A stretch of DNA of 41,361 nucleotides from a virus, in the IMG/VR virus record IMGVR_UViG_3300033150_000112, positions 1-41,361 of that record, one strand, 5' to 3'. The translations under genes were made by a program, and so were the position numbers. Position 1 is the first letter of the stretch. Every line of letters starts with the position of its first letter. The notes beneath the pieces were generated by a model. The model was not told the origin of the DNA and did no database searches. It was given only the letters and a program-made list of their open reading frames with translations. Shown one piece after another: positions 3,513 to 39,371 of this stretch.

Positions 3513-6500
3513 ATGGCGAATACGACAAGAAATTTTACTCAAGGAAAAATGAATAAGATGGTGGATGAACGTCTTGTCCCTGACGGGCAGTACGTTGATG
3601 CACTAAACATTCGTATGGGTTCTACTGAAGGCTCTGAGATAGGTGTTATAGAAAATTCCAAGGGTAATAACCAACTAACTAGCTTAAGATATTTAAACGC
3701 TAATTTAAGCGGTGCAGCTAAATGTATAGGTGCATTTGAAGATGGTGCATTTGAAACAATGTATTGGTTTGTTCACGACCCCAACTTTGAAGGACCGGGA
3801 ACATTAACAAGTATAGTTGATTTAATTGTTTCCTTTAATACAGAAACACAACTCTTAAGATATCACGTTATTAGTATTGGTGACCCACTAGATGTCACAC
3901 AGACTAAAACCACATTAAACTTTAACTCAGATTACTTAATCACAGGAGTAAATAAGATTGAGAACTTATTGTATTGGACCGATAATTATAACGCACCAAG
4001 ACAGATAAATGTAAATAAAAACTATGCTAATCCTGTTGGGCAAATTGATGGGTTTAGTGCAGAAGAATTGTTGGTTATTAAAAAACCACCTGTTACATCT
4101 CCATTAGTTACACCTGTTGCTACGTCAAGCCAAGATAATTTTTTGGAAGATAGGTTTATAAGCTTTGCATATAGATATAAGTATGCTGACGGAGAGTATT
4201 CCGCTACGTCACAATTTTCAGAGCCAAGTTTTTTACCTAATGCATTTAGATACGATATTAGTACTGCATTAAATTCGGGTATGTTAAATACCACTAACGC
4301 TGCTACTATAAGATATAATTCAGGTGGTCCGTTAGTAAAAGAAGTTGATATTCTTTTTAAGGATATGAATAGTTCTGTAATTAAAGTTATTGAATCACTA
4401 AACAAAGAACAGGTAGGGTTAGCAGATGATACGGAATACAACTTTAATTTTAATAACAGTAAAATATTTACAATTCTGCCTACTTCAGAAATTTTAAGGT
4501 TATATGATAACGTACCGCATTTAGCACAGGCTCAAACAATGATGGGTAACAGGCTAATGTATGGGAATTATTATGAGCAATATGATTTACAAAGAGATTC
4601 TGTACCAACTAAGTTTGAATATACTGTAAGTACATCTCAGGAATCAATAGGTAGAACTGACTTAGAAGGTTTAACCGTTCAAGGAAACTATAGTGTTAAT
4701 GGTGCTCAAGCAATACAGAATAGTGTTGTTGAAGTAGATTTAGATGGATTAGACTTAATACAAGGTGCTACATTAAATATATTAATAAGGTTTGAACACA
4801 GTAGTTGGACAGGACAAGCACCATTCCCTGCTGATGAAACTCAAGAACAAAGTATAGAGTTTACTTATATATTACCTCAAAATTTTTCTTCAGTTTATGA
4901 CTTAGCTAGTTCTGTAGACTTTGCAGAAAAGGTAGGTGTTATAACTAATATACAAACAGTAGATAATGCTTGTAGTGGATTAACATTAACAGATTTATTT
5001 AATTGTACAATTTCAAATGAGTTGTCAGGATTATTTAAATATGAAAGTGGAATAAGTACCACAGGTCAACCTATAGAAATTATTACAACTCCGGGGTCAA
5101 CTAGCATAAAATTACAGTTGTTAGCTATGTCTTTTGTGGATGACCCTACAGGAGCAGCAATTACACAAACTGTATGGGAATACTATAAAATAAACTTAGT
5201 AGATGCAGTCTATCAAGAGTTAGGAGACCCATCAAGTTTACATAGTAATAGAGGGTATGAGATTGGTATAGTTTATATGGATGAGTTCAATAGAGCGACA
5301 TCTGCACAAGTTAGTTTAAATAACAACGTGCACGTTCCCTGTTCTGCATCTGAATTTAAAAATACAATTAATGTAAATATACCAACATCACAACTAGCAC
5401 CATCTTGGGCAACTAGGTATAAGTTTGTAATAAAACCTGATAAGGAAATTTATAATACAATATATTCACAATTCTTTTTTAGAGACCCTGCTAGTGGAGC
5501 GGATTACTTTTTATTAGAAGGTCAGAACTCACAAAAAATAGAACTTGGCGATGAGTTAATTGTAAAGAAAGATACACAAGGTCCAAGAGATAATTGTACA
5601 TATACAACGGTTCTTGAAAAAGATGCTAAAACAAAAGACTTTTTGGACCCTAAACCCGTTGATATAAATGGTGAGGATATTCCTGTTCCGGCAGGGACAT
5701 ATATGAAATTAAGAGCAAACAACTTTTCTACCGAAGTAGGGGACTTGCCGGTTGTTGCTTATGGTGAAAAAAATAATAACGGAAGTGGTTGTAGGTCTGT
5801 TAACTACCCTGTAGACACAGAGGACCCAAGTAACCCCGGTCAATATATAGACTATAGTTTACCGGCAGGTACTAAAGTTAGTATGAAGCTGAGAGGATAT
5901 AGAAGGGGTAATGAAGATAAGTTATTTGGGAATGTCCCTAAAAAAATATGGCAAGTAGACACCATCTTTACTGCTTCTCAGGAGTATAGTAACTTTAAAT
6001 CTTGGTTTGAAGGAGACAATATTGCCGGTGCATTAAGTGGACTTGCAACCGATGAGGGGACGGGTGTCGATGGACCTAATTATAGTAACAACTATCAATC
6101 TGCAAGTAATAGACCTTGTAGTGTTGGTAATGTTTACACTAACTTTTATCAATCCGGAGGAAGAACATATTTTGTTTTTAAAGCAATGAAAGGGTATGGT
6201 GGAAGCAACAAAAATTCTAGAGCAAGAGTTGATATTGAAGTTATTCGTGCAAGTGGATTAACTGTTTTTGAAACACTACCCCAAGATGCATCACCGGATT
6301 TATGGTATGAGTCTTCAAAATCTTACCCTATTAATACCTCAACAGGAGAACACTTAGGTAATGTGCAGGACCAAGATATTGCAACCAATACACCTGCCTT
6401 AATTAAAACTGCATTTTTTAATTGTTATTCTTTTGGTAATGGAGTGGAAAGTTGGAAAATTCAAGACTCAATTATTGGTAAAGAATTAGTCTTAGGCAAC

Positions 6501-11739: not shown

Positions 11740-13731
11740 ATGGCAACAGCATATAAATACGTTGAAAGAAAAGCAGAGGACAATATAAATTGGGCAGAGG
11801 TAGGCTCCAATTTAACTAATACTCTTAAAGAAGAAAATAGAATTCGTGAGGAGAAAAAAGGTGCGATTGATGCAGCTACTCGTGAAATGCAAAAGGTATT
11901 AAATAATATACCTCTTGGAGAAAATACTCTATTAAATGAATTTGCTTTAAATGCCGGTGCTGATTTACAAGAGGTTATGCTTATGAACGAGACCCTTTTA
12001 AAGTCAGGACAATTAGACCCAAGACAATATACTATTACTAGACAAAACCTAGTTGACGGAACTGACCAAGCTTTTAGTTTGTTTGAAAATTATAATGCTG
12101 AGTACAAAAGAAAAATGGCTATGAATAACTCCCAACTTCCTGTTGGAGAACAAGCTTCAGAAATACAGAATTGGTCTATGGGATTAGTTGAAGGCTTTGG
12201 AAATTTCGAAGACAGTAAACTTATAATTAATCCTAATACAGGGATTATGTCTATGGCTAAAATGATACCTGACCCTAACAATCCAAATGGTCCAAGAATA
12301 CCTGACAAAAATAACCTAATGACTGTTCAAAACTTAGAGAACAGAATTAAAGGAACTTATACCAAGTTTGATGTAATAGGTACAGTTGATGAATATGCCA
12401 AAACATTAGGTGTAGATAAAGAAGTTCAACGAAAAATGGGTGGATATAGAGCCAATGGTTTAGTAACCGAGGTTACAGATATTACAAAGAGAAAAGGCTT
12501 TGGTTCATTAGCAGACCTAACTGATAAACAAATTGCAGAAATTGCCAAAGAAGCAGGTATCAAACCTGAAGATGTAAAGGTTATGTCTATGTATGAAAAA
12601 GCAGAGGACAGTTTTGTTAAGAGTCAATTAGGTATTGGAGATAATTCTGCAGCATCAGTGCTTGTAGATTTCTTGCAAGGTGATGGATATACTCCAACAA
12701 TGGACCCTACAGAGGCAGCAGCAGACCCTAAGAAAGTATTGATGAAAAACAACAACGGTAAGCTTGAAGCAGAACTTACTGATGAGCAACAGGCTAGAGC
12801 GGAAGAGGCAATGAAAATTCAGCTTCGTATGCAATTAGATAAAACAGAAGAATATAAAGCTGCACCTAAGGATTACAATGCTCCTACATATGCACCTGCA
12901 GATGTTAGAAAAGAAAAGAGAGATGATGAAGCTAAAGAAAATATTCAAAGAACTTGGAACTCTATTAAAGGTCAAACGGCTAAAGAAAGAGTTGCTTCTT
13001 TTGAATCTTTAATTGGTACCGAAGAAGGTAAAGCGGCAGGATTGATTGGTGTTAACCCATCAACTGATGGATTGTCTATAGAGTTTGTATATACTGACCC
13101 TGTTAAAAATAGAAGAATTGATTTCACTAAGGATATTAGTGATGAAGATTGGGCAATACTAGGTAATGAGATTACAGGTCTTGATGACCCTAAAAAAGCA
13201 TTAAGTGCAGGAGGATTTGTTAAAGATGATAAGGGTAAGAGTAAGCCTCTTAACTTAGACTTCGGAGATTCAGGAGCAAACAGACAAGGTAACCAAGGAA
13301 GATTTGACTCAGAGGTGAGTACATTTATTAAAGCAGGATTCCCTAAAGCTAACAACGGTGAGCCGTTCTTAGACCAAGAACAAGATGCGGTAGCAAAAGC
13401 TTTAAATGATAGATATTCTAAGTATGGTCTAGTAGCTAAAGCAACAGGTTATGGAGGTGGAGATAATACCCAAGTAACTATAGATGGTTGGAAAGGTAAT
13501 GCAGAATATCCTGCGACATTTGATTTAGATTCAGATATTGATATAGATTCTAATGCATATGAAGAAGAACAAAGATTTGAGAAGTGGTTGACTTATGTAT
13601 TAAAGCAAACTAAGCAAATAGGAACCCTAGCGAAAGACCAAAAGTTTACAGGTGGTCAAGGTAAGTATGGTCCTTGTGTTAATGGTAAGAAAGAAGAACT
13701 TTCAACAGGACTACAGGTCCCTTGCAAATAG
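11740..13731 (+). CDS. Internal / ejected virion protein, 663 aa
   Basis: The protein is long, polar and mainly helical, with a charged start (MATAYKYVERKAEDNINWAE) and many Lys/Glu-rich helices. There is no signal peptide, membrane span or recognised enzyme motif. Residues about 330-410 are highly charged and could be a coiled coil. The C-terminal 40 residues (TGGQGKYGPCVNGKKEELST) carry two cysteines, the second at the very end (VPCK). It lies between the T7 gp14-like gene and the 2632-aa polyvalent protein, the place of the second ejected protein in podoviruses. I assign it by position and composition, not by a family match. Confidence 0.55.
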   Translation: MATAYKYVERKAEDNINWAEVGSNLTNTLKEENRIREEKKGAIDAATREMQKVLNNIPLGENTLLNEFALNAGADLQEVMLMNETLLKSGQLDPRQYTITRQNLVDGTDQAFSLFENYNAEYKRKMAMNNSQLPVGEQASEIQNWSMGLVEGFGNFEDSKLIINPNTGIMSMAKMIPDPNNPNGPRIPDKNNLMTVQNLENRIKGTYTKFDVIGTVDEYAKTLGVDKEVQRKMGGYRANGLVTEVTDITKRKGFGSLADLTDKQIAEIAKEAGIKPEDVKVMSMYEKAEDSFVKSQLGIGDNSAASVLVDFLQGDGYTPTMDPTEAAADPKKVLMKNNNGKLEAELTDEQQARAEEAMKIQLRMQLDKTEEYKAAPKDYNAPTYAPADVRKEKRDDEAKENIQRTWNSIKGQTAKERVASFESLIGTEEGKAAGLIGVNPSTDGLSIEFVYTDPVKNRRIDFTKDISDEDWAILGNEITGLDDPKKALSAGGFVKDDKGKSKPLNLDFGDSGANRQGNQGRFDSEVSTFIKAGFPKANNGEPFLDQEQDAVAKALNDRYSKYGLVAKATGYGGGDNTQVTIDGWKGNAEYPATFDLDSDIDIDSNAYEEEQRFEKWLTYVLKQTKQIGTLAKDQKFTGGQGKYGPCVNGKKEELSTGLQVPCK

Positions 13732-13740
13732 AAAAGAACT

Positions 13741-16700
13741 ATGGATGAAATTTTTTATGTAACACCCAATGGTTATAAGATTAGTCAACAAGAAGCACTA
13801 GAAAGATATGGTGATGAAGGGTTTGACCAACTTGTAAATGAAGGGCAGTTAACTGAATTTGTAGAAGAAGAAACACCTGAATTAAATTTTCAAGATGGTG
13901 GTCATTTTTATGAAACACCTAATGGTAAAGTTTACTCTGAAGGTGATTTGGTAAACCGCTATGGTGTAGAGGAATTTAAATCTTATGTTGAGCAAGGCTC
14001 CTTAAAAAAAAAAGATACTCCGGATTTCGTTTCAAGTTTTTCGGATGGCACATCAAGTGCTACAACTTCACCGTCTCCCGTTTCTGAGGAGGTTGATTAC
14101 TTTCAAGGAACATTTGGTGATATACTAAGAGGTATAGATGCCATTAGTCCTGTAGGTGTAGGAGACTTTATTGATGATATGGCACGTTCAATTGATGCCG
14201 GTTTTCAAAATGGTCAGATTGCAGAAAGTGGTAACGATTTACTTATGGGTGGTACTTCTGCTACCTATGAAGATATACAGGAATTTATATCTAAAAGTCA
14301 AAAGGCTACTCAATTGGGTCCTTCTGATGAAATGCAAGATTATCAAAGGATTTATGAAGAAGAAGGCAAGGGTGTATGGGGAACAATAAAGGGACTCATA
14401 TTAAACCCTAGTGTTATTCCTGAGGTATTAGCTAGTTCTTTTTCAGCTATGGCTAATGAAGATTCAGCAGCAGCAGGAGGTGCAGTTATTGCAGCAGGTA
14501 CTGCTTATGGTGCAGGTGCAGGTGCGTTAGCGGGTGGTGTTGGTGCAGCACCGGGTGCAGTTGCAGGTGCCGCAGCTAGTTTACCTTATGCTTTTGCGGC
14601 AGCTAGTACAGTTTTAGAAACAGGTTTAACTTATGGAGAGTTATTAAAAGAAAGACTTGAAGTTCAAGGAAAAGAATTAACTGCAGATAACGTAAAAGAA
14701 TTACTATCTAATGAAGAGGTTGTTGATGAACTAAGATTTGATGCTATCGCAAGAGGTTTAGCAATCGGTACTATAGATGCATTAACAGGTAGATTAGGTG
14801 GTAAGGTAGCAAAACCATTGCTTACTAAGGCGGGGTCTGCGGGAAGTAAATCTGCATCAAGAGCGTTAAAAAGAAAAGCAATTGGTCGTGCTATGGGAGT
14901 TGAATCAGTAGGTGGTTCTATTGGTGAAACTGCAGGTATTGCAGCTACTAATATATACGGTGAACAAGGACAAGAATTTGATACCGGTGAAATACTATTA
15001 GAAGGTATTGCTGAAGCACCGGGTTCTGTTAAGGATTTAATTTCAGTTAGATACCAAAATCCTAAATATAAAATTAACGGAAAGAAAGCTACTGTAGAAG
15101 AAATAGATAAAGTTATTGATGGTATGACTTATGAGCAATTAACCGCTCCTAATTTTAAAATACAAATAGACAATGACTTTGAAGGTAGAGCACAAAAATT
15201 ACAAGATAAAATTTTAGCAGGTAGAACAAAGGAGTCTGTTATGGCTGCTAATCCTGATTTAAATGGACCAACTGTTGATGCTATTGTAGACCTAGAGAGA
15301 CAGGTACAAGAACTTGAAGGACGAGTACTAGGTACAGTAACCGGTAAGAAAAAAATTGCAGACCTAAAAGCACAAATAGTAAACCTTCAGGAAAATCAAT
15401 TAGCTGATGAAGCTGCTGCAGAAACAGAACAAGTAATATCAGAAGTAGCTGACAATGTTAAGGAGAGTATAGAAGAATATAATGCCTTATCTCCTGAAGA
15501 TAAGTTAGAACTTCAAGATAGAGCCATCGACCAAATGCAAAATGAGATGGCTGAGAAGGGTATTAAAGAATACGAACTTACTTCAGAGATGGTTGATGAA
15601 AGAGCATCTCAAATATTAAAACAAGATATAGAAAATCTAGAAGGAAATTTAGAGGGTGAGACTAGATTTAGTATAGCCGAAGAAGGTGAGTCGGCATTCG
15701 TTGCTGACCCCGCAGACTCAGAAGCTATTACTGAAGAGATGAATCAAATGGATGAGGCTGAGGTAAACTTTACAACTCCTAAAGGTCAAACAACATCTCA
15801 AGTTAATCCTTTTGAGGCTAGTAATTCTTCTACAAATTTAAATGAAAACGAGGTTACCGACTTAGGTTTTGAATCACAAGACGATATGGTTGGTGGTATT
15901 GAAGAGTTTAATGGAATACCTATGATTACCGGTGTTTCAGATATCGCTGCAGGTGGAACAATAAAAGATTCCAAGGGTAACGATATGAATGCAAAAGGTG
16001 GTGTAATGTTTAATGCACTTGCTAAAGTTAAAGCGGCTTGGGCAGGAGTAAAAAGAGAAACATCTCAAGGTCAATATGATAACGCAGTTAAACTATACAA
16101 AAAAAATAAAGACTTGTTTGACAGATTGTGGGACGAGGGAAGACTACCAAAGGGACATATTCCAATGGCGATTATCCGTATGGGTAATGATGCTATCAAT
16201 TCAAACGAACTTGTATTCAGGTATCTTGCACCCGAGATTAAAGAACAATCAACAGAAAACCAAACTGCCGCTTTAAATGAACTTGTGTCTGACTTAAAAA
16301 GAAAGAAAGGAAAGTTTGGAAACAACCCTAGACTTCTTCAATTTATAGCAGATAAAAACATAAAGACCTTAGGAGGTTTAATGGATGCGGTTGTTTCTGA
16401 TGCAAATGCTAGAGCAAAGGGAGATGTAAATAACACTTTAACTCTTGATGAAAGAGCAGAATTATTCTACAACATAACCTCACCTGAAGGAGTTTCAACT
16501 CCAAACAAGACATTCTTAAAAGCACTATACAAAGGAACAACGGATAACTCAAATGTTTTTGCTTCAGATAATATTTATGCTGCAGTAGGTGAACCTTCTA
16601 TGATGAAGGCAAACAAAGGAGACGTGGTTTCAATTGTAGGTGTAGATGTTTTGAATGGTGGTGTTATAGATATAGACCACCCTAACTATGGTTCAGGTCC

Positions 16701-32495: not shown

Positions 32496-32795
32496 TTAAT
32501 TATTAATATCTATTAAGCTACCATCCCAAGCTTCACCGTTTAGGTACCAAACTTTTTTGGATTGATTTATACTAACACCTTCAATAGCATTCAGCCTATC
32601 TTTAGTAGTGTTGGATTTCCAACCGCAATTTGTGATTGATAGTGTTCTTTCAGGGTCATTGTATCTGTATGCAATTTCGTTACCGAATAGTTTTAATACA
32701 GTTACATTTGGAAGTACAACAACTTCTGTGTTGTCTCTTTTAAACGGTTCAGCATTCATAAATTTTTGTGCTGAGTCATAAGATATTTTTCTCAT
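32496..32795 (-). CDS. Conserved phage protein with GWxSNTTKxRLN motif, 99 aa
   Basis: The protein starts at 32795 (MRKISYDSAQKFMNAEPFKR), after the leader CAAAATCAA; the frame continues upstream to 32819 without a typical leader. The centre has VTVLKLFGNEIAYRY and SITNCGWKSNTTKDRLNAIE, and the end has KVWYLNGEAWDGSLID. I recognise the GWxSNTTKxRLN...W.LNG..W pattern from a small domain of unknown function found in many phages (a DUF8033-like type). It follows structured element C and a promoter box. Confidence 0.7.
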   Translation of the reverse strand: MRKISYDSAQKFMNAEPFKRDNTEVVVLPNVTVLKLFGNEIAYRYNDPERTLSITNCGWKSNTTKDRLNAIEGVSINQSKKVWYLNGEAWDGSLIDINN

Positions 32796-32828
32796 TTGAT
32801 TTGATTTTGATTGTGGCACTATTGCCTT

Positions 32829-32875
32829 CTACCACCAAAAGCCGACCACTATTTCAAGGTCAGCTTGGTGGGGTT
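32829..32875 (-). ncRNA. Structured intergenic element, copy C
   Basis: On the minus strand an outer stem CCACCA/TGGTGG and an inner 8-bp stem AGCTGACC/GGTCGGCT (one T-G pair) enclose a loop with TTGAAATA, and the element ends TTTTGGTGGTAG. No T run follows, so it is not a simple terminator. Copies A (35350-35404) and B (35054-35096) share the loop GAAA[AT]A and the end TTTGGTGGTAG with different inner-stem sequences. Confidence 0.65.
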
Positions 32876-32932
32876 GCTAGGTCAACCCTATTAATAATAT
32901 AAACTAAAACATCCTAGCATCTAAGTTCAGTA

Positions 32933-32940
32933 CAAATATA
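32933..32940 (-). promoter_or_regulatory. -7 promoter box (TATATTTG, minus strand)
   Basis: The minus strand reads TATATTTG, an exact TAnnTTTG match, with a TTG about 20 nt upstream (plus 32961-32963). It lies right after the lysozyme-like gene and would drive the 99-aa gene and those beyond, with element C in the 5' leader. The surrounding bases (ATTTAGACTATATTTGT) resemble the ardC promoter at 36380-36387. Confidence 0.55.
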
Positions 32941-32942
32941 GT

Positions 32943-33497
32943 CTAAATATTTGACAATTCCAAATCTATACTGCACAACTTATTTTCTACTCTCTTCCAA
33001 TAATTCAGGGTTGATTTCTTTTTATGACCTCTTCCCCCACCGTTCCATTTTCTTGCTACTACCTCACAGAATTCAAAGAAACTTAAGTCATCACAACACT
33101 CTGTTTGTTCTGCCATAATCTCAAACATCTCAATAGATTTTTCTCTACTATATCTATCTTGTAGTTTGTATTTTTTGTTTGCTTTATTTTTTCTTAGAAC
33201 TCTATTAACTTCTCTAACCATAATTGGATGGATTTGAAGACAACCAACTGCCTTTCCATTGTCTCCAATTATTGAGTCATTACCTCTGCTCTCAACCCAT
33301 ATCATACTCTCAATAAAATCATCCCAATTCAACTCTCTGAACTGAGGTTGAGGTGGTATAGTTTCTAGGCTATCAATTACATTTTGAATAATCTCTTTTT
33401 GTTTTTGAACAGGTGTATGGTCTTGGTATCCAAAGATTAAACTCAATCCAAAGATTAAGTTTGAACCTAATAATATATTTAATAATTTAACTTTCAT
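32943..33497 (-). CDS. Lysozyme/transglycosylase-like protein with N-terminal anchor, 184 aa
   Basis: Residues 4-24 (KLLNILLGSNLIFGLSLIFG) are a hydrophobic signal or membrane anchor. The soluble part has the lytic transglycosylase pattern: catalytic Glu in MIWVESRGNDS (E69), the GKAVGCLQIHP block, then VVARKWNGGGRGHKK, equivalent to the late YN-G motif. This fits a peptidoglycan-cleaving enzyme (endolysin or spanin-side muramidase). It overlaps the zinc-ribbon gene by 4 nt (ATGA). It is unusual to find it among early/replication genes, where it may be held as a signal-anchor enzyme for lysis or entry. Confidence 0.72.
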   Translation of the reverse strand: MKVKLLNILLGSNLIFGLSLIFGYQDHTPVQKQKEIIQNVIDSLETIPPQPQFRELNWDDFIESMIWVESRGNDSIIGDNGKAVGCLQIHPIMVREVNRVLRKNKANKKYKLQDRYSREKSIEMFEIMAEQTECCDDLSFFEFCEVVARKWNGGGRGHKKKSTLNYWKRVENKLCSIDLELSNI

Positions 33498-33730
33498 AGT
33501 CCTTGTCTTTTTTCGTCAGCTAAATCCTCTAAGTAGGATTCCCTTCTGCGTTCTTCATATTCCCAATCTTCCTCTATTTCACAAAAGTCTTGACAACTAT
33601 TACAAACGTAAGGCTCTTCAGTTTCTATGTCATTCTCATAATCTATAGAGTTAACATAGTCAGCACCACAACAAGTACTTACATACTCACTGTATTCTGG
33701 TGCCTGTAATTTCCAATCATCGTAATTCAT
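33494..33730 (-). CDS. Zinc-ribbon-like acidic protein, 78 aa
   Basis: Two cysteine pairs (STCCGADY near residues 18-25 and VCNSCQDFCE near residues 42-51) form a likely zinc ribbon, followed by a Glu/Arg-rich helix (EEDWEYEERRRESYLEDLAD). The protein is acidic. It starts 5 nt after the 54-aa gene and overlaps the lysozyme-like gene by 4 nt. Its role is unknown; zinc ribbons of this size often mediate protein or nucleic acid binding. Confidence 0.7.
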   Translation of the reverse strand: MNYDDWKLQAPEYSEYVSTCCGADYVNSIDYENDIETEEPYVCNSCQDFCEIEEDWEYEERRRESYLEDLADEKRQGL

Positions 33731-33735
33731 ATAGT

Positions 33736-33900
33736 TTAATTTTTAGATTTGACTGCGGTAAATTTTTCTCTTTTAATCCAAGGATGGGTTCCTATATTTT
33801 TATTGTAGATTCTATCTATAGCTTCCCACTTGGTGTGGGCGGGGATAACCTGTATTAGTTTCCCCGCATATCTTACATTATAATAGCTTTGTCTTTCCAT
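33736..33900 (-). CDS. Small basic protein, 54 aa
   Basis: This short frame reads MERQSYYNVRYAGKLIQVIP then AHTKWEAIDRIYNKNIGTHP and ends WIKREKFTAVKSKN. Its ATG overlaps the stop of the 374-aa gene as TAATG and its stop is 5 nt before the zinc-ribbon start, so it fills the gap exactly as a coupled gene. A basic strand-helix-strand layout is likely. I do not recognise a family. Confidence 0.7.
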   Translation of the reverse strand: MERQSYYNVRYAGKLIQVIPAHTKWEAIDRIYNKNIGTHPWIKREKFTAVKSKN

Positions 33901-35024
33901 TATTTCTGCTTGTTAAATCTATCTGCCCACTCCTCCCAAGTATCTAACTTAAACTCGTTAGCATCTTTGTATGATAGCATTTCAAATTGAGTATCATCTT
34001 CTCTCCAAGCATTTATATTAAAATACATATAACTTCCTGAAGGAAAAGATAGCTTGATTTTATCAAGATTATCGTAGTACTTGCTTATGTTTTCTATGAT
34101 TGCACTAGGATACTTTTGTTTTAATTGTGAAGTATATTTATTATAACACAACAACCTCTTGCTATAGATTAACATATTGTTTTCTGATTCCTCAGCCAAC
34201 TCCTTAATCTTCTTAAGTAGTCCTTTAGCAGTATATCCTCGGCTTGTATCTGTGATACTCCAACATTCCATTTTGTTACCATACCTAGGTCCTCTTGAAT
34301 AACTTGTATTCAGGTCCTTTAATCTAGGATTTGCTAATTTTATTTTTAGATGAGGTGTTTCGTCACTGTAACGATTTGATACATATGTCTTATATCTTAT
34401 TTGTAATTTACTATAAGGCACATTAATGTAAACGGTATATTTTATATTGCCATCTATGATATAAAATGTTTCAGTTTCAGAACTAACTATGTAATTAATA
34501 TCCTTAGATTCAAAGCCTCCTTCAATTAAAAGATTGTACAATGTTTTATCGTGTTCCACTTGCCCGTTGTTTGAGTTATAAATATTTTCGCAACGGTCTA
34601 AGTTCTTTTTATCTTTGATGGATTCTAAAAACTCTTTTGTGATTTCAGGCTTATCGGTATAGGACATATAGTTTAATGTCTTGACCTCTAAACTTTTTTC
34701 AACTCTTGATATCAACTCTAATATATCCTCTCTACCTTGCCAACCAAGTACATCGTCATTGGCTCCAATAAAAAACTTTCTAGTAAATTCTTTGTCACCG
34801 TCTTCATTGGTTTCAAATACTGCTACCTCAAAGCTACTATAGAACCTATCTTGGTCAGGCTTTAACCAAGAACTAATTTTACCATCGAAGCCTGTTGAGT
34901 AAAAGTTTTTACCTCCTACGATTGACAACTCATACTGAGCAATTTTTAAGGTGCCTCTTACACCTTCATCTGTTGCGGGATGCTTTTCAAATTTGATGTC
35001 ATCCCAATTGTTTACTGTTTGCAT
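33900..35024 (-). CDS. Unknown protein, 374 aa
   Basis: I do not recognise it. The first 110 residues are a beta-rich domain (GTLKIAQYELSIVGGKNFYS, SSFEVAVFETNEDGDKEFTR). Then comes a helical, acidic link (GREDILELISRVEKSLEVK), a mixed centre with several Tyr/Ser-rich strands (LQIRYKTYVSNRYSDETPHL), and a lysine-rich helix region near residues 270-310 (GLLKKIKELAEESENNMLIY). No catalytic motif is obvious. It lies between element B and the 54-aa gene, sharing a TAATG junction with the latter. Confidence 0.65.
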   Translation of the reverse strand: MQTVNNWDDIKFEKHPATDEGVRGTLKIAQYELSIVGGKNFYSTGFDGKISSWLKPDQDRFYSSFEVAVFETNEDGDKEFTRKFFIGANDDVLGWQGREDILELISRVEKSLEVKTLNYMSYTDKPEITKEFLESIKDKKNLDRCENIYNSNNGQVEHDKTLYNLLIEGGFESKDINYIVSSETETFYIIDGNIKYTVYINVPYSKLQIRYKTYVSNRYSDETPHLKIKLANPRLKDLNTSYSRGPRYGNKMECWSITDTSRGYTAKGLLKKIKELAEESENNMLIYSKRLLCYNKYTSQLKQKYPSAIIENISKYYDNLDKIKLSFPSGSYMYFNINAWREDDTQFEMLSYKDANEFKLDTWEEWADRFNKQK

Positions 35025-35053
35025 TTTAATTTAATTTTAATTATTAATTATTA

Positions 35054-35096
35054 CTACCACCAAATCCCCGCATTTATTTCAGTGCGAGGTTGGTGT
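35054..35096 (-). ncRNA. Structured intergenic element, copy B
   Basis: On the minus strand CACCAA pairs with TTGGTG and the inner stem CCTCGCA pairs with TGCGGGG (one T-G pair) around the loop CTGAAATAAA; it ends ATTTGGTGGTAG. It begins about 16 nt after the small membrane gene and ends 30 nt before the 374-aa gene. No T run follows. It belongs to the same family as copies A and C. Confidence 0.65.
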
Positions 35097-35111
35097 TTTA
35101 GTGAGTTCTAA

Positions 35112-35312
35112 CTAGCTCTTAATCTCTTTGAATACTAAGTATCCACTAACATACATTAAGAACGCTAAGAACAGAAATACAGGTGTCAAGGCTAATGATT
35201 TAATACCGTTGTTGGCAACGATGTCGACCACCATTCTAGCTACATTGGTATAAATAAATAATACTGCTAAAGTCATTAAAACTTTTCCTGTAATTGTGAT
35301 AATTGATTTCAT
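35112..35312 (-). CDS. Small two-span membrane protein, 66 aa
   Basis: Two hydrophobic segments are visible: residues about 8-30 (TGKVLMTLAVLFIYTNVARM) and about 42-60 (LTPVFLFLAFLMYVSGYLVF). A basic start and KEIKS end suggest a defined topology. It is flanked by structured elements A and B. A holin or membrane-remodelling role is possible, especially as a lysozyme-like gene lies 1.6 kb downstream, but the sequence does not prove it. Confidence 0.6.
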   Translation of the reverse strand: MKSIITITGKVLMTLAVLFIYTNVARMVVDIVANNGIKSLALTPVFLFLAFLMYVSGYLVFKEIKS

Positions 35313-35349
35313 AATTTTTGATTTTGATTTATAAATTAATTAATAGTTT

Positions 35350-35404
35350 CTACCACCAAAACCCCGCTATTTTCATAGCGAGGCGGTTGGCGGTGGTGGT
35401 TGGT
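35350..35404 (-). ncRNA. Structured intergenic element, copy A
   Basis: Directly after the ardC-like stop the minus strand forms a perfect 9-bp stem CCTCGCTAT/ATAGCGGGG with a GAAA tetraloop, an outer ACCACC/GGTGGT pairing and the shared end TTTTGGTGGTAG. It lies 37 nt before the membrane-protein gene. No T run follows, so it is not a standard terminator. Confidence 0.7.
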
Positions 35405-36340
35405 TTACTTCTGTATAAACTCTACTACCTTAGTTGCCTGTTGCATAGCGTAGACACATTCGCTTGGCTTGTCTGCAAGATGCTTACACCAACCCTTTAT
35501 GTAGGCTTGAGAGTTTTCGTCATCGCTCTTTGGATTAAGTCCTAGCAACCCTACTAAATACATTGCACTAATCTCAGCAACCAACTCTTCCTTAGCGTAA
35601 GTATTGTCACCCCAATGTGCTACCTCAGTTAAAGACTTTCTGTTAAGTCTTGATTTGTGACCTGTACTGTGAGCGATTTCGTGAAACAAAACTTTGTAAT
35701 AGCTATCAGAGTCAACAAACGTCTCTAGGTGTGGCATATTTACATAGTCTCTTGATGGTGAGTAATACGCTCCACTTTGACCGTGCTTAATCTCAAAACC
35801 GTTTTGATTTTCAACGTAGTTTTTTACTAAAGTTTCAGCTACCTCAACAGGCTCGTTTTGAACCTCCTCAATAACTTTCTCTGTTTGCATTGGCTCAATT
35901 CCTTCGCACTGAGCAATATTAAATACTCTGTAATATTTCACTGAGAAAGTCTTTCTGTACCTGTCTTTCCCATCAGCTAATTTCTCATTTGGATTAATAT
36001 TTTTAACCTCCTTAGGACTTACAAACTTCCCTGTTTTATTATCAAAATATCCTATTTGCCAAAAGTAAACTTCAGTAGATTTTGAACCCTTAACAACCTT
36101 ACCACCTTTTGCGGATACTTGTTTAAAAGTTAACCATTGGTTGAACTCATAACCTTCGGCTCTCATAACGCAGTTTAACATAAAGATATTGAACCCGTTG
36201 TAATAGCGTTTTGTAGCTAGATTAAATGGTGCGTTTTCCTGTCCACCTTTCCAAGGCTTGAACCAATTCATCCCTTCCTTTTCTAGTCCTTCAATTACTA
36301 GCTTATTTACTCTTTCGAAAATTTCGTTTTGCTTACTCAT
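35405..36340 (-). CDS. ardC: ArdC-like antirestriction protein, 311 aa
   Basis: The N-terminal domain (residues 1-130) has the ArdC ssDNA-binding pattern: NWFKPWKGGQENAPFNLATK, RYYNGFNIFML, NQWLTFKQVSAKGGKVVKGS, KYYRVFNIAQCEGI. The C-terminal half is a zincin-like domain with YYKVLFHEIAHSTGHKSRLN (HEIAH at residues 220-224) and KEELVAEISAMYLVG supplying a likely third ligand. ArdC proteins protect entering single-stranded DNA from restriction and are found on plasmids and phages. As first gene of the leftward block, next to divergent promoters, early expression is expected. Length is close to the family norm. Confidence 0.88.
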   Translation of the reverse strand: MSKQNEIFERVNKLVIEGLEKEGMNWFKPWKGGQENAPFNLATKRYYNGFNIFMLNCVMRAEGYEFNQWLTFKQVSAKGGKVVKGSKSTEVYFWQIGYFDNKTGKFVSPKEVKNINPNEKLADGKDRYRKTFSVKYYRVFNIAQCEGIEPMQTEKVIEEVQNEPVEVAETLVKNYVENQNGFEIKHGQSGAYYSPSRDYVNMPHLETFVDSDSYYKVLFHEIAHSTGHKSRLNRKSLTEVAHWGDNTYAKEELVAEISAMYLVGLLGLNPKSDDENSQAYIKGWCKHLADKPSECVYAMQQATKVVEFIQK

Positions 36341-37103: not shown

Positions 37104-37104
37104 G

Positions 37105-37178
37105 TACACCTACTAGGACTCGAACCTAGGACCTACTCATTAGAAGTGAGTTGTTCTATCCAACTGAACTATAGGTGC
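37105..37178 (-). tRNA. tRNA-Arg (anticodon UCU)
   Basis: The minus strand folds into a full cloverleaf of 74 nt. The acceptor is GCACCTA/TAGGTGT with one G-T pair and discriminator A, the D arm is GTTC AGTTGGATA GAAC, and the T arm is CTAGG TTCGAGT CCTAG. The anticodon arm is ACTCA CTTCTAA TGAGT, giving anticodon TCT, which reads AGA, the main arginine codon of the phage genes. CCA is not encoded. It lies next to the terminator and TGTCGA locus 2. Confidence 0.95.
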
Positions 37179-37778: not shown

Positions 37779-39371
37779 ATGTCAAACATAGGATATACTC
37801 CCAAGAACTTATTGTTCGATGAGGAGGGGAGAAAAAAATTATACAAAGGGATTGAAACATTATCCTCAGCAGTAAAGTCTACACTAGGACCTGCCGGTCA
37901 AACAGTATTGATTGAATCACCACAACACACCCACGGAATAACAGTAACAAAAGATGGAGTAACAGTTGCTAAAGCAGTTGCACTTATCGACCCCACTGAA
38001 CACCTTGCGGTAAAGATGATGAAAGAAGCAGCCGAAAGAACTGCGACCTCAGCAGGAGACGGAACTACAACTGCAATTGTTCTCACTGAAGCTTTAGTCA
38101 AAGCAGGTGCAGAACTTATAACTGAAAATAAAACATCGGTATTAAGAGATTTAGTTTCATTAACCGAAACCATATGCAGTAACTTAAAAAAGAAATCGAC
38201 AAGAGTTACACAAAAGAAACTAAAGGACGTTGCTACTATATCAGCAAACAATGACAAAGACTTGGGTACTATTATATCAGAGGTATACAAGAAGGTGGGT
38301 ATAAACGGATTAGTTACTATTGATAGGTCTCAAACATCTGAGACATATTATGAATCTACAAATGGATTAAAGATTGAACGTGGATATGAATCACCATTGT
38401 TTGTAAACAATCAGAAGAAAGACGAGTGTGTACTAGAGGATTGCTATATTCTAGTTAGTGATGCACCAATTGAAAATTTACTACATATAGAAAATGTATT
38501 GAAGCCTGTTATACAAGATAACAAAAGACTTTTAATTATTGCACCAACCTCAGCGAATGTAACAAATACATTAGCGGCTAATGTAATGAAGAATGGTTTA
38601 AAGCTTTGTACTATTGGACCACCATCATTTGGTTATAAGCAACACGAACTTATGCAGGACATTGCATTAAGCGTGGGTGCTACTTACTATAGTGAAAAGA
38701 CCGGTGATGATTTAAGCTTGATGACGTTAGATGATTTGGGTCACTGTGCTAAGGTGATAGTTGGTCGTGACTCAACCGTCATCATTAAAGATGAAGTTGA
38801 AGTAGAAGGATTAGATAAAAGAATAAAAGAACTAAAAGAAGCACACAAAAGAGAGTCAGATAAAAACAACGCAGAGTTTATACTATCAAGGATTGCAACA
38901 CTTACAGGTGGTGTAGGAGTTATTTATGTTGGAGGTCAAACAGACTTAGAACAAAAAGAACTATACGATAGAGTTGATGATGCAGTATGTGCAGTACGTT
39001 CAGCACTAGAAGAGGGAATCCTACCCGGTGGTGGAGTAGCACTTTATAAAGAAGCCACTTATATTGAAGACGATAATAATAAAGTTGCCGGTAAAATTTT
39101 AGCGAGAGCACTTCGTGCTCCTTTGTTACAGATTTATTCCAATGCAGGTTTAGAGTTATCCGGTGACGAAGAGCACCATATTCAATTTGATGAAGGTAAT
39201 GAAGGTATGAATATTAAGACGGGTGAATGGGGAGATATGTATAAGATGGGTGTGATTGACCCATTAAAGGTTACTAAGTCTGCATTACAAAATGCAGTAT
39301 CTGTTGCAGTAACTATATTATCTACTAACGCTATAATAACTATGGCTAGAACTTACGAGGATAAAGATTAA
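37779..39371 (+). CDS. groEL: Chaperonin GroEL (Cpn60), 530 aa
   Basis: This is a full-length GroEL-type chaperonin subunit. ATP-binding motifs include AVKSTLGPAGQTVLIE, ITVTKDGVTVAKAV and GDGTTTA (residues 93-99). VDDAVCAVRSALEEGILPGG then GVALY is the equatorial return segment, and the end is VTKSALQNAVSVAVTILSTN. All three domains seem present. It is slightly shorter than E. coli GroEL (548) and lacks the GGM-rich C-terminal tail. The apical part diverges strongly from bacterial GroEL. Its gene is followed 16 nt later by groES, as in bacteria, so a complete phage-coded folding machine is likely, probably for virion proteins. Confidence 0.97.
   Translation: MSNIGYTPKNLLFDEEGRKKLYKGIETLSSAVKSTLGPAGQTVLIESPQHTHGITVTKDGVTVAKAVALIDPTEHLAVKMMKEAAERTATSAGDGTTTAIVLTEALVKAGAELITENKTSVLRDLVSLTETICSNLKKKSTRVTQKKLKDVATISANNDKDLGTIISEVYKKVGINGLVTIDRSQTSETYYESTNGLKIERGYESPLFVNNQKKDECVLEDCYILVSDAPIENLLHIENVLKPVIQDNKRLLIIAPTSANVTNTLAANVMKNGLKLCTIGPPSFGYKQHELMQDIALSVGATYYSEKTGDDLSLMTLDDLGHCAKVIVGRDSTVIIKDEVEVEGLDKRIKELKEAHKRESDKNNAEFILSRIATLTGGVGVIYVGGQTDLEQKELYDRVDDAVCAVRSALEEGILPGGGVALYKEATYIEDDNNKVAGKILARALRAPLLQIYSNAGLELSGDEEHHIQFDEGNEGMNIKTGEWGDMYKMGVIDPLKVTKSALQNAVSVAVTILSTNAIITMARTYEDKD

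Follow-up and report, generated by a model that had tools for sequence, protein, structure and literature searches.

The stretch of DNA considered in this study, referred to below as the window, is the whole of a 41-kb virus record from IMG/VR (IMGVR_UViG_3300033150_000112; 41,361 nt). Inside a leftward operon, whose small genes are for the most part uncharacterised, lie three hairpins, W1, W2 and W3, all on the minus strand and placed between genes (Table 1). The original prediction, made without database searches, had presented them as three copies of a structured element. I report here that the element is a structured RNA that acts on the sense strand, that it belongs to a family found in phages and prophages of Bacteroidota, and that its copies may serve to separate neighbouring messages in the phage transcript.

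Table 1. Hairpins, shared 3' sequences, leaders and genes of the window, in the order of leftward transcription.
Feature	Position	Strand	Remarks
Anti-restriction protein gene	35405..36340	(-)	upstream of W1; PHROG 7245, E 2e-70
W1, two-stem hairpin	35352..35394	(-)	inner stem CCTCGCTAT/ATAGCGGGG, loop GAAA; fold z -4.8; covariance models E 5e-14, 1.7e-11
TTTGGTGGTAG of W1 (outer stem 3' strand and tail)	35360-35350	(-)	exact match
Leader from W1 to ATG of 66-aa gene	35313..35349	(-)	A/T-rich
66-aa gene	35112..35312	(-)	between W1 and W2; missing, with one element, from related phage L184
W2, hairpin	35058..35095	(-)	CACCAA-CCTCGCA-CTGAAATAAA-TGCGGGG-AT-TTGGTG; fold z -4.4; covariance models E 1.2e-20, 5.2e-17
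TTTGGTGGTAG of W2	35064-35054	(-)	exact match
Leader from W2 to ATG of 374-aa gene	35025..35053	(-)	A/T-rich
374-aa gene	33900..35024	(-)	downstream of W2; no assigned function
W3, hairpin	32833..32870	(-)	CACCAA-GCTGACC-TTGAAATAGT-GGTCGGC-TT-TTGGTG; fold z -3.9; covariance models E 1.3e-16, 7.5e-10
TTTGGTGGTAG of W3	32839-32829	(-)	exact match
Leader from W3 to ATG of 99-aa gene	32796..32828	(-)	contains hairpin GGCA-ATAG-TGCC
99-aa gene	32496..32795	(-)	downstream of W3; PHROG 554, function unassigned

The three hairpins are present where they had been predicted and fold far better than shuffled sequences, with RNA folding energies of -27.9 (W1), -19.2 (W2) and -32.3 kcal/mol (W3), values equalled in none of 200 shuffles of each copy. 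The GC-rich inner stem, 7-9 bp long, is spelled with its own letters in each window copy and yet is paired, with a T-G at the third pair in all three, much as had been noticed. It is enclosed by an outer stem, not separately described in the original prediction, made by TTTGGTG together with CACCAA or a shifted form of it, and the 3' side of the hairpin carries a short T-containing bulge. The claim that no copy has a T run was mistaken, since a short run of 3-4 T follows the inner stem in W1, W2 and W3, and the proposed loop core GAAA[AT]A does not extend to the first loop, which reads GAAAAT. The only exact copies of the 11-mer TTTGGTGGTAG in the window are the three at the 3' ends of the hairpins, and no fourth copy of the element was found when the whole window was searched with a covariance model built from 23 copies.

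That the differing inner stems reflect selection on structure is borne out by a larger set of sequences. In an alignment of 69 copies, all 7 inner-stem pairs are standard in every sequence and 6 of them change on both sides, giving a covariation score of 0.355, as compared to 0.163 in shuffles (0/500 as high) and no more than 0.11 in slid controls, bearing in mind that kinship among the sequences somewhat inflates covariation and pair counts. Those 69 copies were chosen partly by fixed stem letters and an intact stem, and the fairer test is that of the first alignment, whose members were picked mainly for their loop and 3' motif; there the covariation again lies beyond that of shuffles (0/500). 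Pairing in the outer stem is likewise better between true partners than between permuted ones, both over all copies (0/5000 permutations as good) and over the 31 copies that lack TTTGGTGG (5/5000). The strand that folds may be read from the mismatches: the inner stem has 21 G-T pairs and 4 A-C mismatches, and because a G-T on one strand is an A-C on the other, it is the sense strand that folds, in the form of RNA.

Further copies in other phages, one of the tests that had been proposed for the element, turn out to be plentiful. Viral contigs were scanned in three ways (by loop plus 3' motif, by 3' motif alone, and by stem plus loop alone), and the family amounts to 68 distinct copies at about 60 viral loci, with one to three strong copies in each whole phage record (records up to 73 kb). 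A first viral scan by flanks gave, among the matches listed, mostly chance occurrences in coding sequence and a few real copies. The set found by stem plus loop makes clear that TTTGGTGGTAG, exact though it is in all three window copies, is not the signature it had been taken for but merely the commonest form of the outer 3' strand: alternative outer stems are CCGCTTC/GAGGCGG (L227), CGCCC/GGGCG (L241) and CCAGA/TCTGG (L242). The loop, about 96% conserved in the set selected by loop, is variable in copies obtained from the 3' motif or the model. Copies found without selection on the loop have TCAGAAACGG, AGAAAT, TTAATT, TTAACG and GAAA types, and the variants also include CTGAAAYAAA and AGAAAC. 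A CTGAAAYAAA hairpin also occurs in another setting (L265 around position 2461, L281 around 9118), where GAGA and then a sequence like CGTTAATTTAGAT follow it and a short leader plus ATG does not; this may be a different RNA.

An exact-pattern scan of bacterial genome contigs gave only chance matches. A search with the model found clear copies in one Flavobacteriales genome and three Sphingobacteriales genomes, one of the Sphingobacteriales genomes having two copies, separated by 870 bp, on a chromosome contig of 5.6 Mb. These bacterial copies sit among phage-type replication, recombination, methylase, terminase or portal genes, in four prophage-like regions, and the family therefore belongs to phages and prophages of Bacteroidota. 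The model search found no copies in Bacteroidales genomes, but absence from other bacteria is weak evidence, since the strict filter of the multi-genome search also missed one known copy. Two candidates were discarded, L336 (Flavobacteriales), which matches by chance within repetitive coding sequence, and L335, which may be an ordinary terminator.

The original prediction knew of no described relative, and that judgment stands. Elements in the window and at other loci gave no Rfam 15 family at or near the gathering threshold (cmscan), BLAST with the consensus found no match in 50,697 phage records, and the element is absent from the annotated relatives MW202828 and MT497078. No description was found in the open-access papers searched, though the motif may stand unnamed in some published list of structured RNAs from phages. 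As far as Rfam and those papers tell, the element is a new RNA family.

The genes on either side of the element run in the same direction. The median distance is 21 nt from the upstream stop codon to the inner stem (IQR, interquartile range, 19-22) and 33 nt from the inner stem to the downstream ATG (IQR 30-38). The spacer before it is A/C-rich, and the leader after it is A-rich and mostly unpaired. Where the gap is long (W3, L128, L218, L225), the element keeps near the downstream gene. Its neighbours are mostly unrelated ORFans with few known families (PHROG, Pfam), 65 downstream genes falling into 47 clusters and 64 upstream genes into 54, and for that reason I regard the element as general-purpose. 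The neighbouring gene is conserved in only 8 of 50 comparisons across element gaps, as compared to 347 of 661 nearby element-free boundaries. Other large gaps are nearly as mosaic (121 of 484 adjacencies conserved), and so the shuffling of genes is probably more a consequence than the function of the element.

The most telling neighbours of the element are ribozymes. In four successive gaps of one operon, phage record G438 (L345, L272) has a hammerhead, an element, a pistol and an element. The pistol scores 54.9 bits, above its Rfam threshold; the hammerhead, with core and three stems intact, scores 29.7 bits, short of its gathering score of 34. The leader is near-identical in three of the gaps, where it ends in AAATTAAATGCTTTATG, and similar in the fourth. 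Related phages (L266, L127, L378, L375) have similar mixtures of elements and ribozymes, with a pistol or hammerhead adjoining the element in the first three. The clearest case of replacement concerns a gene for a 183-aa protein, which has the element in front of it in L266/L380, whereas a hammerhead stands in front of its orthologue in L381/L382 (protein 79% identical) and in front of its copy in L383 (98% DNA identity over 184 bp). Farther upstream, L380 and L383 have another gene in common (94% over 393 bp); what separates the two is one unit of small ORF plus element. Hammerhead and pistol also swap with each other before genes with a common N-terminal domain. An association of the element with known ribozymes is thus present in the genomes of this one lineage, and the slots they occupy suggest that the element is interchangeable with self-cleaving ribozymes. 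What looked like a second swap, with pistol and element in turn before family F0, was set aside, as the proteins have no more than their C-terminal part in common, and hammerhead-like matches in L242 look like chance within repeated sequence.

The same lineage offers other structured RNAs. Hammerheads with intact core and stems but below or outside the Rfam thresholds occur in L127, L266, L272/L345, L375, L378 and L383, and L266 and L375 also have pistols of more than 70 bits. Another repeated element recurs in several successive gaps (L375, reverse strand, gaps 3787-4895; L272, plus strand, 12400-13960), often as a short GC-rich hairpin of varying sequence followed by GGTTACTGATAAC, the same type of leader and an ATG. 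It has no Rfam match in L375 and is possibly another processing element.

Of the functions the original prediction had offered, I favour processing, because the element shares slots with ribozymes, and I give about an even chance to its being a hairpin in the gaps of a polycistronic phage mRNA that marks or makes the cut between genes. The transcript would be cut at or just 3' of the base of the hairpin, near GGUGGUA/AAA. This would leave the upstream message with a stable hairpin as its end, just past the stop codon, the downstream message would start with a short, unstructured, A-rich leader, and the role common to element and ribozymes would be the separation of neighbouring messages. The cutting agent is perhaps a host or phage endonuclease such as RNase III, which I think likelier than self-cleavage, given that both the loop and the 3' strand show variation; the element does supply the intercistronic double-stranded helix expected of an RNase III-type site. 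There are considerations on the other side. Direct exchange of slots was seen in one lineage only, the hammerheads there fall below the Rfam gathering threshold, intact though their core and three stems are, and no ribozyme came up when about 45 other element loci were scanned against Rfam. The sharing of slots could reflect, in place of cutting, a common recombination joint or a common need for a structured spacer. Furthermore, a hairpin of 13-16 bp is short for a classical RNase III site.

Like the early RNase III sites of phage T7, the element is a two-part hairpin whose internal loop is one-sided and which lies in gaps of an early phage operon, and it has the same proposed outcome (cleavage of the element being only predicted). 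Its helix, however, is shorter, and its loop and tail are partly conserved. Hammerhead ribozymes have been found in intergenic arrays in phages (Rfam RF00163, RF00008; Perreault et al. 2011, PMC3088659), and they are like the element in being intergenic in phage operons, few in number and flanking single genes of changing identity; one set lies around an anti-restriction gene (PMC3088659), as W1 follows one. The element, however, is without the CUGANGA...GAAA core, three-way junction or Rfam match of a hammerhead, and no hammerhead was found at any element by cmscan or by a scan for core and stems, the latter of which does detect the neighbouring hammerheads. Pistol (Rfam RF02679; PMC4604425), which was discovered together with twister-sister and hatchet by searching near ribozyme-associated phage genes, resembles the element in position: in L345 and L266 it fills adjoining gaps of one operon, and its leader is similar. 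Here too the likeness ends with the structure, since the element lacks the pistol consensus and pseudoknot, and cmscan places pistols in neighbouring gaps but none at the element.

It is conceivable, though unlikely, that the element is itself a very small self-cleaving ribozyme of a new class, widespread in Bacteroidota phages and freely exchanging with hammerhead and pistol as the cutter. It occupies their positions and replaces one hammerhead, its loop is partly conserved and its U bulge and tail are conserved, and the logic is that by which pistol, twister-sister and hatchet were found (PMC4604425). Against this, it is a plain two-stem hairpin in which no pseudoknot or third helix was found, unlike known small ribozymes; neither its loop nor its 3' strand seems as fixed as a catalytic core; and it matches no Rfam ribozyme. 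I also consider unlikely a translational operator or leader, in which a phage or host protein would bind the hairpin near the start codon and set the level of the downstream protein. The way the element hugs the downstream ATG in the long gaps and the unstructured leader would suit such a role. GAAA-type hexaloops often bind proteins. The downstream genes, however, are almost all unrelated (no search for a shared regulator was made), the upstream stop is spaced more tightly than the ATG, and exchange with ribozymes would be left unexplained.

The gene shuffling around the element bears on whether it could be a recombination joint, a repeated boundary at which small genes are swapped as cassettes, which I judge improbable. 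The low conservation of neighbours across element gaps and the gain or loss of an ORF-plus-element unit (L380 versus L383, the window versus L184) speak for a joint, but other large gaps are mosaic as well, and compensatory change in both stems indicates selection on pairing, for which a joint has no need. The model for such a joint is the PeSL cassette known from T4-type phages (PMC4503421, citing Arbiol 2010 and Comeau 2014). PeSLs are similarly stem-loops bordering exchangeable small genes, and differ in having promoters, none of which was found near the element; the element also has no strong terminator, and both its stems covary strongly. Membership among PeSL cassettes was rejected, since a strong early promoter was not seen and the host-type promoter motif is depleted near the elements. 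It is quite improbable that the element damps expression along the operon as a weak intrinsic terminator or as an attenuator. The GC-rich stem is indeed followed by a conserved TTT (99%, 93% and 88% at positions +18 to +20), but the U tract is short (a mean of 4.2 T in 8 nt; U-tail score 3.5, as compared to 5.3-6.4 for good example tails) and no promoter follows that would restart transcription, which makes termination unlikely. In addition, the outer stem that encloses the T run is maintained, and a terminator scan omits all three window copies, in keeping with the original view that these are not ordinary terminators. Least probable, to the point of being hardly credible, is a promoter, whether a host sigma site or a DNA hairpin recognised by an N4-type phage RNA polymerase. 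The near-fixed distance to the ATG and the few copies in early-type gene regions are what a promoter might show. N4-type hairpins, however, act on the template strand, and here G-T on the sense strand is far above A-C; the motif TAnnTTTG is depleted near elements (0.08 versus 0.57 per kb), and no virion RNA polymerase was recognised among the window proteins scanned.

The element is most likely of a known kind, the intercistronic mRNA-processing elements, and would be categorically new only if it cleaves itself. Ribozymes between phage genes have long been seen and their function is unsettled; replacement of one by a hairpin in the same slot makes that function testable, and comparison of interchangeable elements within a single operon would reveal which is under selection, the cutting, the protection of ends or the definition of the leader. 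A described mRNA-processing signal for Bacteroidota phages would follow, and the element might serve as a compact part by which synthetic operons are split.

Turning to the surroundings of the window copies, W1 lies 10 nt past the stop codon of the anti-restriction gene. The window and the related phage L184 differ by one unit, the 66-aa ORF plus one element, and the L184 homologue of the 374-aa gene (36% identical) likewise has an element in front. W3 is preceded directly by a further hairpin, GGGTTG-ACCTAG-CAACCC (32871-32888, minus strand), and the small hairpin that follows it (within 32800-32828, minus strand) recurs behind the L009 copy. A tRNA-Arg (TCT; 37104-37178, minus strand) lies upstream of the leftward operon and is 86-87% identical to the tRNA-Arg of Bacteroides phages such as DAC15. 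A GroEL homologue (PHROG 5725, E 1e-136; 37779-39371, plus strand) is divergent from the operon, and the related Manatee Spring phage MW202828 carries groEL together with a chaperonin-10 gene.

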